64,000 bases of DNA from Fundidesulfovibrio putealis DSM 16056 (GTDB lineage Bacteria; Desulfobacterota; Desulfovibrionia; Desulfovibrionales; Desulfovibrionaceae), in the NCBI RefSeq assembly GCF_000429325.1, contig NZ_AUBQ01000005.1:248001-312000 (forward strand). Reading direction: 5' to 3'. Positions 3,821 through 9,617 of the stretch are shown here, piece by piece; the stretch's first letter is position 1, and each line of letters starts with the position of its first letter. The notes under the pieces are model-generated. The model had not been told where the DNA came from, ran no database searches, and saw nothing but the letters and a program-made list of their open reading frames with translations. Position numbers and translations under genes: made by a program.

Positions 3821-6207
3821 TGCGTCCGGTTTCAGGGGGAACGCCCGCCCAGGCGTGCCTGGCTTTCCTGGTCGCGCTGGGATTCGTGCTGCGCGTGTAT
3901 AACCTGGGCGTGCCGTCCCAGTGGATGGACGAGATCCTCGTCCCGCTGAACGCCAGCCATCCCATGGAGTACATCCTGGAGCTTTCCAGGCGCATCGAGG
4001 TCCATTCCCCGTTCTTCTACATGATCGTAAAGGCCCTGCTGGCGGCGGATTCGGGGGATTTCCTCCTGCGCCTGCCGTCGGCGCTGGCCGGTGCGGCCAC
4101 GATCTGGGTGGTGTTCCAGCTTGGCAGGGAGCTGCATGGTGACCGGCTCGGGCTCTATGCGGCGGCGTTGATCGCGTTGAACACGCACCATCTGTACCTC
4201 TCCCGCTACATCCGCCCCTATGGGCTTACGGTCTTCCTGTTCAGCCTGACGCTTCTGCTGATGCTTCGTGCGGAGAAATCCGGGAGGCGGGGCCTGCTGG
4301 CCTGGCTGCTGGTTGCCGACGCGTTCATGGTGCTGCTGCACAACCTGGGGGTGCTGGTGCTGGCGGCGCAGGCGTTCTACCTGATTGTCCGCCGGGCTGC
4401 GGGGAGGAGTCCGCTGAGCTGGCTGGCGGTTGCGGGGTTTTCGGCCTGCACGGCGGCCCTGGGCGCGGGCGCGTGGTTCTTCTTCATGCGCAGCAGCATC
4501 GTGGGGGAATTTCTGGCGCAGCCCATGCCTTTGGGCGACTCCCTGGCCGTGGTGGGCGAGAACTTCCTGCGCAACCTGTTCTCGTTCGACGCCCCCTGGG
4601 TCTGGGGCGGTTTCGCGCTGTGGTTCCTGGCGGGGCTGATGCTCCTGTGGCGCGCCGATGCCTGGAGCGGCTTCATCGTCGCGCTGTTCGTATTCCTCCC
4701 GCCGCTGGCCCTGGTGGGCGCGGGCATGACCTGGAACCTGTGGCCCAGGCACCTGAGCCACGTGATTCCACTGGCGGCGCTGGCCATGGCCGCGCTTCCG
4801 GCCTCCCTGCGCCTGACCGGATCGCGTCATGCCCTGTTGGCCGCATCATTGGGGATGGCCGGGGGCGTGGTGTTCCTGTGGCCCGCCCATGACCGCTTCT
4901 ACGAGGTCGACAGCTACCGCGACCGGGTGATCGGCACCAATTACAAGCTCCTGGCCCGGGAAGTCCCCTCCGGCATGGGGCCTGCGGACGCGCTGGTGGT
5001 CACCAACGACTATTTCCGCAACGGCCTGAACTGGTACGCAGACCGTGGACCGCAGCCCAACCGGTTCCGTTCCCAGACCATCACCCCACAGGACCGGGCA
5101 ATCCGGCTGCACGTGCTGGCCAACCTGCACTACGGGTACTTCGCCAAGGGCTGGCAGGACTTCGAGGAGCGCCACAGACCCGAGAGCGTGCGCCGCCTGG
5201 AGGAGAACGTCCGGCTGTTCACGCTGCCCGTGGAGCGCGACCCGGTCTTCACGGTGCGCGAACGCTCACGCCCAGTGGCCGTGCCCATGGACCTTGCGGG
5301 ATTCTACCGCAGCGTGGGCGCTCTTCGCGACGCGGTATTCTTCCAGGACGCGCGCGGGCCGTTCGCCATGGCCACCCGCAACAACTCCGAGGCGATGCTG
5401 GAATACGTGTTCGCCAACGAAACGGGCGGCGCTCCGGGTACAATCGTCCTGAACCTGTTCTACCGCAACACAGGCAAGGGCAACCACCTGACGGTGGAGA
5501 CTGCCTTTGACGGCGAAGCGCCCGCGCCGCACCCCATATCCATGGGGCCGGACCCGAGGAGCCAGGCGGGCATTGTGCTGGAGCGCGCCGCGCCGTTTTC
5601 CAGGCTGACCGTGCGGGTGAAGATGGTCTGCGCGCCGCTTACGCCCAGGTTTCCCGGCGGCAACTACGAGACCCTGCGTTTCGAGGGGCTGGAGGCGTCC
5701 TTCTGCGGCTCGCCGGACGCCCCGGCAACGCCGGGCTGCCTGGAGGCCATGGCCGAGCGCCGACGCGACAACGCCCTGCGCAATTTTCTGGCCGAGCGGT
5801 TCCTGGCTGCAAGCACAGTGAAGCAGAAGATTGACTCCGTCTCGCCTTTGCTGCGCAACGTCCCGGATGAGCAAATGCCAGGTTGGAGCAGGCTTGAATC
5901 AACCTCGCCGGACACTGCGGCCAGCCTTGTGGCCGAACTCCAGCCAGGCAGGGAACTGCTCGCCGTCTACCCCCGCGTGGGCGGCGGGTCCGCTGTGGCC
6001 CTGTATCAACTGGGGCCGGACGGCAGACGCGAGGAACTCCTGGCGCTGCGTGGCCGCGAAAGCGCCTGGACGCCTGTGTCGGGCCAGTATCCCATCCGCC
6101 TGGATCCGTCGCTTCGGGTCGGCGGGGCCTACCGCGTCGAGGCCGTGCTGGTGGGCAGGTGGGCCCAGCTCTGGAATAATAACGGAACTATTTTCTTCGA
6201 GCAGTAG
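3820..6207 (+). CDS. GT-C-type membrane glycosyltransferase (ArnT/PMT-like)
   Basis: A 795-residue protein. The first ~470 residues contain about ten hydrophobic segments, and the remaining ~320 form a soluble C-terminal part. The first outside loop carries SQWMDE (D37, E38), the acidic pair typical of lipid-linked sugar transferases of the GT39/ArnT type, which take a sugar from polyprenyl phosphate and attach it to lipid or protein outside the membrane. The ATG overlaps the plsY stop by one base. Donor and acceptor cannot be read from sequence. A hairpin follows the stop immediately. Confidence 0.7.
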   Translation: MRPVSGGTPAQACLAFLVALGFVLRVYNLGVPSQWMDEILVPLNASHPMEYILELSRRIEVHSPFFYMIVKALLAADSGDFLLRLPSALAGAATIWVVFQLGRELHGDRLGLYAAALIALNTHHLYLSRYIRPYGLTVFLFSLTLLLMLRAEKSGRRGLLAWLLVADAFMVLLHNLGVLVLAAQAFYLIVRRAAGRSPLSWLAVAGFSACTAALGAGAWFFFMRSSIVGEFLAQPMPLGDSLAVVGENFLRNLFSFDAPWVWGGFALWFLAGLMLLWRADAWSGFIVALFVFLPPLALVGAGMTWNLWPRHLSHVIPLAALAMAALPASLRLTGSRHALLAASLGMAGGVVFLWPAHDRFYEVDSYRDRVIGTNYKLLAREVPSGMGPADALVVTNDYFRNGLNWYADRGPQPNRFRSQTITPQDRAIRLHVLANLHYGYFAKGWQDFEERHRPESVRRLEENVRLFTLPVERDPVFTVRERSRPVAVPMDLAGFYRSVGALRDAVFFQDARGPFAMATRNNSEAMLEYVFANETGGAPGTIVLNLFYRNTGKGNHLTVETAFDGEAPAPHPISMGPDPRSQAGIVLERAAPFSRLTVRVKMVCAPLTPRFPGGNYETLRFEGLEASFCGSPDAPATPGCLEAMAERRRDNALRNFLAERFLAASTVKQKIDSVSPLLRNVPDEQMPGWSRLESTSPDTAASLVAELQPGRELLAVYPRVGGGSAVALYQLGPDGRREELLALRGRESAWTPVSGQYPIRLDPSLRVGGAYRVEAVLVGRWAQLWNNNGTIFFEQ

Positions 6208-6250
6208 AGCGGTTACGCCTGGGTCGCCCCGGCGTGGCCGCTCTTCAAAT
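6206..6250 (+). terminator. Probable terminator hairpin after the GT-C gene
   Basis: AGAGCGG (6206-6212) pairs with CCGCTCT (6238-6244) and the stem extends inward through TTACGCC/GGCGTGG with two G-T pairs. Only a short T run follows, so efficiency is uncertain. Confidence 0.5.
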
Positions 6251-6278
6251 TGACATGCCCTCAGGGAGGGCCTAAATC
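6250..6278 (+). promoter_or_regulatory. Candidate sigma-70 promoter for the riboswitch-nrdGD transcript
   Basis: A perfect -35 TTGACA (6250-6255), a 17-nt spacer and TAAATC (6273-6278, a weak -10 match) place a transcription start near 6285, just before the cobalamin aptamer. Confidence 0.55.
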
Positions 6279-6282
6279 ATCG

Positions 6283-6435
6283 CATCGCCCCGGAAAACGG
6301 AAGACGGTGCAAATCCGTCGCAGGCGCGCTGCTGTAACCGGCACTCACGGGCGGCAGGCCACTGGATGGAGAGACCATCCGGGAAGGCCTCCGCGCACAT
6401 CCGGCCGGAAGTCAGAAGACGTTCCTGGGGAGTTT
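6283..6435 (+). ncRNA. Cobalamin riboswitch
   Basis: Conserved cobalamin-aptamer blocks occur in the right order: GGTGCAAATCCGTCGCAGGC at 6307-6326 followed by GCTGCTGTAACCGG, then GCCACTGGATGG near 6358, GGGAAGGCC near 6381, and the B12 box GGAAGTCAGAAGAC near 6407-6420. It is on the same strand as nrdG-nrdD. By analogy with other B12-controlled reductases, cobalamin binding should shut off the class III enzyme when a B12-dependent class II reductase can work. The class II gene is not in this window. Confidence 0.88.
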
Positions 6436-6733
6436 CGGCCTGACCCCGCGAATGGGTCATGGTTCCCGCAAACTGATCGTGGCCTCGCCGCAGTCCGCCT
6501 TCTGGCGACGTGAGCGCGGCGTCCACGACGCGTCGAAAGCCGAGCCTGGGCGCAGGCGGCTCTCGATGCCCTTCTCCGTCGTTTCCCGCGCCGAACCCTT
6601 TGCATTTTTTCGTAATTGATAAATCCAGGCCGTTTGAGCAGTTGCATATTCAGTTAGGGAAGTTGCTGATATGTTGAACTATTATTTTCTTTTTTGCGGA
6701 AACGCCTTCTGCTAGGAGCATATCGTAACCACG
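6436..6733 (+). other. Long leader between riboswitch and nrdG
   Basis: About 300 nt without a credible gene. It contains a small hairpin (TGACCC/GGGTCA near 6440-6459), the palindrome CGACGCGTCG near 6526, then an AT-rich stretch from ~6600 to 6715. No clear intrinsic terminator is visible, and the only AGGAG (6714-6718) lies 15 nt before the nrdG ATG. A second promoter in the AT-rich part is possible but not resolved. Confidence 0.5.
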
Positions 6734-7435
6734 ATGCACACGCACACCCCCACCATCCCAGCCATCTCACTCGGTCACGGCGTCCACGCAGCCCCGGTCC
6801 CCCCGCTGGAGCGCTCCCCCGGACAGGACCCGGCCAGGATCAGGGCGGTGACGTCTTTCACGCTCAGCGACTGGGCCGGAAAGGCCTGCGCCGTGGTGTA
6901 CCTGGGCGGCTGCAACCTGCGCTGCCCCACCTGCCACAACGCCACCCTGGCCTTCACCCCCGAGCTCCATCCCCCCTTGGAGACCGGAGCGGTGCTGGCA
7001 TCGCTTGCGGCCCGCAAGCCCTGGCTGGACGGGGTGGTGGTCTGCGGCGGCGAGCCCACGCTGGACTCCGGCCTCGCTGATCTGGTGGAGAAACTCTTCG
7101 CGCTGGGGTTCGCCGTGAAGGTGGACACCAACGGCCTGCGGCCCGAGGCCGTGGCCGCCGTGCTGGCGCGCTGCCCGGACACGGTCTTTGCCGTGGACGT
7201 GAAAGGCCCCTGGCACATGTATCCCGAGCTCACCGGCGGGGGCGTTTCCTCCCAGGCTGCGCGCGAGCGCCTGGAGATGGTCTTCGCCATGGCCCGCAAG
7301 CATCCGCAATCATTCTTATTCCGTATCACCCTGGTCCCCGGTCTGACGCCGGAAGACGTCCAGGCGGCCAGGGACTCCCTGCCCGCCGGTTTCGTCCTGA
7401 AAGAACAAACGTATATGCCCCCCGCCTCAAGTTAA
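6734..7435 (+). CDS. nrdG: Anaerobic ribonucleotide reductase activating protein (radical SAM)
   Basis: A 233-residue radical SAM enzyme that uses a 4Fe-4S cluster and S-adenosylmethionine to install the glycyl radical on NrdD. The cluster motif CNLRCPTC (CX3CX2C) is near residue 58 and the SAM-contact GGEP motif is near residue 105. About 35 N-terminal residues before RAVTSFTL are not part of the usual fold, so the true start could be internal. nrdD begins 9 nt after the stop. Order is nrdG before nrdD, reversed from E. coli nrdDG. Confidence 0.9.
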   Translation: MHTHTPTIPAISLGHGVHAAPVPPLERSPGQDPARIRAVTSFTLSDWAGKACAVVYLGGCNLRCPTCHNATLAFTPELHPPLETGAVLASLAARKPWLDGVVVCGGEPTLDSGLADLVEKLFALGFAVKVDTNGLRPEAVAAVLARCPDTVFAVDVKGPWHMYPELTGGGVSSQAARERLEMVFAMARKHPQSFLFRITLVPGLTPEDVQAARDSLPAGFVLKEQTYMPPASS

Positions 7436-7444
7436 GGAGATCCC

Positions 7445-9514
7445 ATGCCCCTTCAGATACAGAAACGCGACGGCTGCCTGGAAACCTGGTCCCTGGAGCG
7501 CATCGCCCAGGCCATCCTCAAGGCTTTGAAAGCCAGCGGCATCCAGGACCCCATCCTGGCCAAGCGCGTTGCCCGCAAGGTCGAGGAGAAACTCGAAGGG
7601 GTGGACGTGCCCCGCCAGGAGCACGTGCAGGACATGGTGGAGCGCGTGCTCATGGAGTCGCGCCTGTACGAGGTGGCCAAGCGCTTCGTGATCTACCGCG
7701 AGAAGCGCCGCACCCTGCGTGAGCAGAAGGCCGCGTACCTGGACATCAAGGACACCATCGACACCTACCTCTCCAAGGCCGACTGGCGCGTGTCCGAGAA
7801 CGCCAACATGGCCCACTCCTTCCAGGGGCTCATGCTGCACCTCTCCGGCACGGTGCAGGCCCGCTACGCCCTGGAGAAGTACCCCGAGGAAGTCCGCGCC
7901 GCGCACGACCACGGCTATTTCCACATCCACGACCTGTCCTTCGGCCTCGCCGGATACTGCGCGGGCTGGAGCCTGCGCGACCTCCTGCTGGAAGGCTTCA
8001 ACCTGGAGGGGCGCTCCTCGGCCGGACCGGCCAAGCACTTCGATTCGGCGCTCGGCCAGATGGTCAACTTCCTGGGCACGCTCCAGAACGAGTGGGCCGG
8101 CGCCCAGGCCTTCAACAACGTGGACACCTACCTCGCGCCGTTCATCCGGCACGACGGGCTGGATTACCAGCACGTGCGCCAGGCCGTGCAGAAGTTCGTG
8201 TTCAACCTGAACACCACCTCGCGCTGGGGCGGCCAGACCCCCTTCACCAACCTGAGCTTCGACCTGACCGCGCCCAAGCACATCGCCAAGGAGGCCGCCA
8301 TCATCGGCGGCGCATTCCAGGACCAGAACTACGGCGAGTTCCAGGCCGAGATGGACATGTTCAACCAGGCCTTCCTGGAAGTGATGGCCGAGGGCGACTA
8401 CTACGGCCAGATCTTCTCGTTCCCCATCCCCACCTACAACGTCACGGAAGATTTCCCCTGGGATTCGCCCATCGGGACGCGCCTGCTGGAGCTGACCGCC
8501 AAGTACGGCGCGCCCTACTTCCAGAACTTCATCAGCTCCGACCTCTCGCCTGAAGACGTGCGCTCCATGTGCTGCCGCCTGCAGATGGACCTGCGCGAGC
8601 TGCGCAAGAAGGTCGGCGGCCTGTTCGGCGCGGGCGACCTGACCGGCTCCATCGGCGTGGTCACCCTGAACCTGCCCAAGCTCGCCTATCTGGCCCAGGG
8701 AGAGGAAGACTTCCTGGACCTGCTCACCGAGTACGCCACCCTGGCCAAGGACGGGCTGGAGTTCAAACGCAAGCTCATCCAGGGCCACCTCGATCGCGGC
8801 ATGTTCCCCTATTCCTCGCGCTACCTGAAGAACGGCTTCAAGGGCCACTTCTCCACCATCGGGCTGGTGGGCGGCCATGAGGCCTGCCTGAACATCCTGG
8901 GCAAGGGCATCGAGACCGACGCGGGCGTGCGCTTCATGACCCGCACCCTGAACCACCTGCGCGACGTCACCACCCGCTTCCAGGAAGAGACCGGACACCT
9001 CTACAACCTGGAAGCCACCCCCGCCGAGGGCACCAGCTACCGCCTGGCCAAGATCGACAAGGGCCTCTACGCGGACATCCAGGCCTCCGGCGACGACGTG
9101 CCGTACTACACCAACTCCACCAACCTGCCCGTGGGCTTGAGCGAGGACGTGATCGCCGCCCTGGAGCACCAGAACAAGCTCCAGCCGCTGTACACCGGCG
9201 GCACCGTGTTTCATACGTTCCTGGGCGAGGCCGTGGCCGACACCGAGGCCCTGAAGAACTTCATCATCAAGGCCTTCAAAATGACCAAGATCCCGTACCT
9301 GTCCATCACCCCGACGTTCAGCGTGTGCAAGGACCACGGATACATGTCCGGCGCGCACCCGGAATGCACCACCTGCGGCGCGGACTCCGAGGTGTTTACC
9401 AGGATCGTCGGGTACTACCGCCCGGTGTCGCGCTGGAACAAGGGGAAGAAGGCGGAGTACGCTGACAGGGTCACGTATATGGGTGTTTGTGGGTGTGAGC
9501 CGGGGCAGTTGTAG
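7445..9514 (+). CDS. nrdD: Anaerobic ribonucleoside-triphosphate reductase, class III
   Basis: A 689-residue glycyl-radical enzyme that reduces ribonucleotides to deoxyribonucleotides without oxygen. An ATP-cone (residues ~3-90) gives allosteric control. The catalytic barrel follows, then a zinc-site region with CKDHGYM and ECTTCG. The radical motif RIVGYYRPV places the radical glycine at about Gly656. The extreme C-terminus GVCGCEPGQL adds two further cysteines. AAGGAG precedes the ATG. The gene ends just before a strong intrinsic terminator. Confidence 0.95.
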   Translation: MPLQIQKRDGCLETWSLERIAQAILKALKASGIQDPILAKRVARKVEEKLEGVDVPRQEHVQDMVERVLMESRLYEVAKRFVIYREKRRTLREQKAAYLDIKDTIDTYLSKADWRVSENANMAHSFQGLMLHLSGTVQARYALEKYPEEVRAAHDHGYFHIHDLSFGLAGYCAGWSLRDLLLEGFNLEGRSSAGPAKHFDSALGQMVNFLGTLQNEWAGAQAFNNVDTYLAPFIRHDGLDYQHVRQAVQKFVFNLNTTSRWGGQTPFTNLSFDLTAPKHIAKEAAIIGGAFQDQNYGEFQAEMDMFNQAFLEVMAEGDYYGQIFSFPIPTYNVTEDFPWDSPIGTRLLELTAKYGAPYFQNFISSDLSPEDVRSMCCRLQMDLRELRKKVGGLFGAGDLTGSIGVVTLNLPKLAYLAQGEEDFLDLLTEYATLAKDGLEFKRKLIQGHLDRGMFPYSSRYLKNGFKGHFSTIGLVGGHEACLNILGKGIETDAGVRFMTRTLNHLRDVTTRFQEETGHLYNLEATPAEGTSYRLAKIDKGLYADIQASGDDVPYYTNSTNLPVGLSEDVIAALEHQNKLQPLYTGGTVFHTFLGEAVADTEALKNFIIKAFKMTKIPYLSITPTFSVCKDHGYMSGAHPECTTCGADSEVFTRIVGYYRPVSRWNKGKKAEYADRVTYMGVCGCEPGQL

Positions 9515-9529
9515 AAGCTGCATAAAGTC

Positions 9530-9556
9530 AAAGGGGGCTTCGGCCCCCTTTCTTTT
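9530..9556 (+). terminator. Intrinsic terminator of nrdGD
   Basis: Perfect stem AAAGGGGGC/GCCCCCTTT with a TTCG tetraloop followed by CTTTTT, 15 nt after the nrdD stop. Confidence 0.92.
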
Positions 9557-9617
9557 TGGCCTTTAGAGACATTTGTCGGCATCATACAACCCTTGCGGCA
9601 TCTCCAGGAGAATTCTT

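Follow-up and report, generated by a model that had tools for sequence, protein, structure and literature searches.

We propose, as a very probable reading of the sequence and comparative data, that the nrdG-nrdD operon of Fundidesulfovibrio putealis DSM 16056, which encodes the anaerobic class III ribonucleotide reductase and its activase, is headed by an ordinary cobalamin riboswitch that would act as an isozyme switch turned off by B12, with the B12-dependent class II reductase NrdJ taking over. The operon lies in the 64,000-nucleotide stretch of DNA analysed here (contig NZ_AUBQ01000005.1, positions 248,001 to 312,000; hereafter the window, whose own coordinates are used below). The original prediction, made from the letters of the window, had placed the aptamer upstream of nrdG-nrdD, and cmscan agreed with this: the Rfam family RF00174 (Cobalamin; cut-off 31.5 bits) was matched at 6245-6442 on the forward strand, over the complete model (1-189), with a score of 88.8 bits and an E value of 1.3e-20, and nrdG and nrdD followed directly on that strand. 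RF00174 was the sole Rfam family at gathering level in the whole 64-kb window. The class II nrdJ that had been predicted elsewhere in the genome was also found there, as a single copy (TIGR02504, 728.2 bits; NF006417, 1210.9 bits). In a comparison set of 39 related genomes, own included, 35 had NrdD, and 22 of these 35, the own genome again included, had a riboswitch upstream of nrdD in the same orientation. This recurrence, together with the E value of 1.3e-20, excluded a chance pairing of riboswitch and operon.

The features of the locus are the following.

6245 to 6442, forward strand: cobalamin riboswitch aptamer with the extended GCCACUGG...GGGAAGGC domain, full-length by cmscan.
6250 to 6278, forward strand: putative promoter, with a -35 box TTGACA at 6250-6255, a spacer of 17 nucleotides (nt) and a -10 box TAAATC at 6273-6278, from sequence and conservation.
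6441 to 6459, forward strand: P13 hairpin, UGACCC-CGCGAAU-GGGUCA, from position, folding and covariation.
6605 to 6720 (approximate limits, by eye), forward strand: AT-rich conserved block between riboswitch and nrdG, from the alignment of six genus members.
6734 to 7435, forward strand: nrdG, radical SAM activase of the class III reductase with the motif CNLRCPTC (PF04055, 65.6 bits).
7434 to 7439, forward strand: AAGGAG, the ribosome-binding site for nrdD, which shares bases with the stop codon of nrdG; read directly.
7445 to 9514, forward strand: nrdD, class III anaerobic ribonucleoside-triphosphate reductase with an ATP-cone (PF13597, 621.9 bits).
About 9530 to 9557, forward strand: intrinsic terminator AAAGGGGGC-UUCG-GCCCCCUUU with a trailing U run, at the end of the operon, read directly and not by scan.

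From the placement of the -35 and -10 boxes, the transcript would be expected to start at about 6285, inside the outer 5' arm aligned by Rfam, and the transcribed portion of the aptamer probably starts there. The first base of the TTGACA box is position 6250, which the original prediction had given as the start of the element. This box occupied identical alignment columns 5' of the aptamer in all six riboswitch-bearing members of the genus (G000-G005); the seventh member, G006 (66% complete), had no NrdD match and was outside the leader alignment. A consensus promoter scan of 6100-7500 did not list 6250-6278, and its only site was 6152-6180, within the end of the upstream open reading frame; therefore, the promoter was called on the basis of its conservation.

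The hairpin at 6441-6459 is presumably P13, and we take its loop, L13, to be the partner of the aptamer loop L5 (AGGCGC), as in solved cobalamin riboswitches. The hairpin was present at the same place in other genus members with compensatory changes, one position occurring as C-G, G-C and U-A. Across five distinct genus sequences, 25 of 25 pair cells were paired, and this was reached by 51 of 5000 shuffles. A wider count gave 59 of 60 pair cells (0 of 5000 shuffles) in 12 of 22 sequences that were picked for a recognisable loop, with G003 dropped (its hairpin is the same as that of G001) and G007, G013, G014, G017, G023, G025, G026, G030 and G036 left out for a differing loop or an unrecognised hairpin. 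As the set of 12 was favourably selected, the count over five genus sequences is the fairer figure for P13. L5 and L13 were complementary over about four G-C pairs, as judged by eye, and folding of 6285-6475 gave a z of -2.39.

The overlap of the nrdD ribosome-binding site with the nrdG stop codon and the terminator hairpin after nrdD showed that nrdG and nrdD form one operon, and translational coupling between the two genes is likely from their layout. The best NCBIfam match of nrdG was TIGR02495 (NrdG2) with 125.3 bits, slightly under its cut-off of 131.15. The nrdD product also contained an ATP-cone (PF03477, 64.6 bits) and matched NF006126 with 1022.7 bits; the sequence RIVGYYR near its C-terminus is presumably the glycyl-radical motif.

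In the rest of the genome (4.7 Mb in 29 contigs, completeness 99.99), nrdJ was the only PF02867 match, so no further class I or class II large subunit was present. The class I small subunit, PF00268, had no match in the own genome or in any other of the 39 genomes searched, and on this ground a class I enzyme was rejected as the true partner. Control by NrdR was considered and rejected as well, as a search of the own genome gave no NrdR match and the regions upstream of nrdJ and nrdG had no visible common motif. The nrdJ region (L040) contained no RNA family at E 0.01, and a riboswitch was found upstream of nrdJ in 0 of 6 members of the genus (L040 and L081-L085). The regions 5' of nrdJ in 20 further genomes, none of them from the sister genus described below and five of them the L081-L085 genomes, likewise yielded no RNA family, with not every gene start checked. 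The genome has four cobalamin riboswitches, and the other three are located 5' of cbiK, cobT and a CbpB radical SAM/SPASM gene; since they precede cbiK and cobT, at least two of these three serve B12 synthesis. The riboswitch of the third (L039, 7320-7526, reverse strand) lies 5' of CbpB at 5686-7269 on the same reverse strand, a peptide-modifying radical SAM protein (TIGR04163, 709.9 bits).

All 22 genomes with a riboswitch at nrdD also carried a PF02867 gene, which was assigned to class II given that the search for class I small subunits gave no match. G012 and G019 had NrdD but lacked a PF02867 match at E 0.001 (in G019 the best score, 11.6 bits with E 0.12, was below threshold), and neither of them had a riboswitch at nrdD. 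Second NrdD copies occurred in G007, G008 and G014. As a separate observation, two tandem NrdD genes followed one weak cobalamin riboswitch (33 bits) in G025 (L054), with an NrdG-like motif between them.

We infer the ligand, the sign (off by B12) and the L5-L13 docking, and the process may be pictured as follows. With ample (adenosyl)cobalamin, the aptamer would fold and L5 would dock on L13 of P13; less would then be made of the class III reductase, which is sensitive to oxygen and does not need B12, and the B12-dependent NrdJ would supply deoxyribonucleotides. Under a shortage of cobalamin or cobalt, NrdDG would be made. For the window's genome, the data thus support an anaerobe that picks its DNA-precursor enzyme by cobalamin status. 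The choice of enzyme would also set oxygen tolerance, because only NrdJ works with oxygen. The original prediction had spoken here of two oxygen-compatible strategies, which was mistaken, as class III reductases work only anaerobically, and class II reductases work with or without oxygen (PMC4009431).

Several findings weigh against this reading, both at the locus itself and among related genomes. No intrinsic terminator was found on the forward strand of 6100-7500 by a scan for terminator-like sites, and no direct case of masking of the nrdG ribosome site was seen. The nrdG start codon is 291 nt past the aptamer, which makes a long leader with the conserved AT-rich block in between. With no intrinsic terminator and with the nrdG start so far downstream, control may be either transcriptional or translational. 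Among the related genomes, 13 of the 35 with NrdD had no riboswitch at nrdD and 11 of these 13 carried a PF02867 gene; the contrast between 22 of 22 and 11 of 13 is small and is no proof of a rule. Degenerate riboswitches were not found either, at E 0.1, in 13 regions from 12 of the 13 riboswitch-less genomes (all except G019), and the only matches in those regions were five sub-threshold microRNA matches, all in one region. Furthermore, both cobalamin riboswitches reported for Oleidesulfovibrio alaskensis G20 precede metE and cbiK and not nrd genes (PMC11124144), and control of nrdDG is therefore not universal in the group. Rho-dependent termination was examined as a separate candidate and rejected: the spacer between P13 and nrdG had a C-over-G excess of 11 in 60 nt, which is not notable, since among all 60-nt segments of the window, both strands counted, 6.6% had an excess of at least 10.

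The AT-rich block at about 6605-6720 also belongs to these adverse points, as it could be a promoter independent of the riboswitch. Possibly it is a second promoter or an operator that would bypass the riboswitch, so that the riboswitch would govern one of two transcripts and nrdGD would be free of B12 control under some condition. The block was kept in six of six genus members and the spacer preceding it was not conserved; in the window, it stayed beside nrdG despite an insertion that lengthened the spacer. However, no sigma-70-like site was listed in the block by the consensus scan, no convincing operator was recognised in it by eye, and NrdR, as stated above, was not found in the genome. 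A conserved leader RNA, moreover, would give the same pattern of conservation as a second promoter. Considering both sides, we regard a second, B12-independent transcript as rather unlikely.

The remaining points against an isozyme switch came from a sister genus, g8, which comprised 17 genomes (G013 and G039-G054) and in which genes were counted by tblastn of regions fetched around riboswitches, NrdD not being sought in G042 and G045. A riboswitch followed by a divergent, B12-dependent nrdJ was present in 12 of the 17 genomes, with a short riboswitch 5' of nrdJ at L049, L137, L138, L140, L142, L143, L144, L145, L148, L149, L150 and L151. A riboswitch followed by nrdD was present in 15 of the 17, the weak cases being G040 (29.5 bits) and G041 (28.9 bits), both under the Rfam cut-off of 31.5, and ten genomes had a riboswitch at both nrdJ and nrdD. 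A TIGR02504 search found NrdJ in exactly those 12 genomes, with three of the 12 matches under its cut-off. In G013, which also belongs to the comparison set of 39 genomes, the divergent NrdJ of 894 amino acids scored 403.9 bits (cut-off 399.95), its best solved relative was the B12-dependent reductase 1xje (E 6.8e-53), and its gene had its own riboswitch of 43 bits (L049, 4142-4286, reverse strand). The nrdJ and nrdD leaders of G013 agreed in 118 of 146 aptamer columns and, over the 200 nt that follow, in 160 of 206; for the nine other genomes with both riboswitches, agreement between the two aptamers ranged from 73 of 153 columns (G039) to 117 of 147 (G049). A search with the divergent NrdJ returned eight loci, namely three from close relatives (metagenome-assembled genomes, two of Desulfovibrio sp. 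and one of Desulfoplanes sp.) and five from distant Paenibacillus.

In five g8 genomes, a riboswitch was located 5' of nrdD, and searches with TIGR02504 (at E 0.001) and PF02867 (at E 1) found no class I or class II large subunit. These were G040 (L155), G041 (L156), G051 (L135), G052 (L133) and G053 (L141), with a completeness of 99-100, three of them as a single contig, and with two of the five riboswitches below the Rfam cut-off. NrdG was not found in the fetched neighbourhoods of these five genomes and was not sought beyond them. The aptamers of G051-G053 had one 30-nt stretch that was identical at 28 of 30 positions, and their other stretches were identical at 12 to 20 of 30, a level that parts of the region upstream also reached. 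According to the original prediction, B12 control of ribonucleotide reductases is established where a class II enzyme can substitute. This agrees with the published model (PMC545781; PMC3848588), but as a general rule it is weakened by the five g8 genomes and the 12 of 17 with a riboswitch 5' of nrdJ.

These g8 arrangements would fit a riboswitch that is not an isozyme switch at all and works instead by partial damping, by activation or on another corrinoid signal. For the window we consider this improbable, as the g8 aptamers are short and without the extended domain of the window aptamer, and the regions upstream of nrdJ in the window's own genus were riboswitch-free in all six cases. Within g8, the nrdD and nrdJ leaders had a common second conserved stretch 3' of the aptamer (AAgTCCtGCgGgatg.GCCTtCcGGG.cgCCtGC), which in some genomes was complementary to L5 by eye and which may be an expression platform. 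If the g8 riboswitches work, we would tentatively suggest, as one option among others, that they perform no simple isozyme swap, that cobalamin may tune or activate the synthesis of deoxyribonucleoside triphosphates overall, and that the link between riboswitch and nrdD is perhaps older than, or independent of, an NrdJ back-up. It is very improbable that the window aptamer is a remnant that no longer controls anything: the lack of a recognisable terminator or of ribosome-site masking and the distance of 291 nt to nrdG would fit a relic, but the genus as a whole has kept both the aptamer core and P13, the latter through compensatory changes. An off-by-B12 switch from NrdDG to NrdJ remains our preferred reading for the window, and the g8 exceptions make the usual explanation of nrd riboswitches directly testable.

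Comparable systems have been described for several bacteria. In Streptomyces, B12 reportedly represses a B12-independent reductase through a riboswitch at nrdABS, a case that is reported to have been tested experimentally (Borovok and colleagues, 2006); the window is alike in that a B12-independent reductase would be repressed by B12, and differs in that the Streptomyces operon is of class I. In Propionibacterium acnes, cobalamin riboswitches were annotated 5' of nrdAB and nrdDG and not of nrdRJ, and B12 was argued to lower nrdAB and nrdDG, with the RNA-seq evidence of early termination concerning nrdAB (PMC3848588). As in the window's genome, the riboswitches are on the B12-independent reductases and none is on nrdJ, whereas P. 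acnes has a class I enzyme and NrdR boxes, and the window's genome gave no match to NrdR. A cobalamin riboswitch was also described 5' of nrdD in Ca. Chlorobium antarcticum (PMC8620254), which is alike in placing the riboswitch on a class III gene and differs in belonging to another phylum. For riboswitches 5' of nrdJ, as in g8, we met no clear earlier case in the available parts of the open-licence literature searched, where one paper loosely states that some B12-dependent reductases are riboswitch-regulated (PMC5962746). The closest precedent is that of Rodionov et al. (2004; PMC545781), who described B12 elements upstream of nrdDG in D. vulgaris and Desulfuromonas, noted NrdJ in all delta-proteobacteria studied, and proposed that the isozyme which does not need B12 is inhibited by it, with NrdJ taking over. 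The window shares with these the riboswitch 5' of the class III genes, the NrdJ in the genome and the proposed repression by B12. It is therefore a new instance of an already published arrangement, one in which no class I enzyme was found and for which the putative promoter box, the P13 hairpin and the conserved block farther downstream are added to the description.

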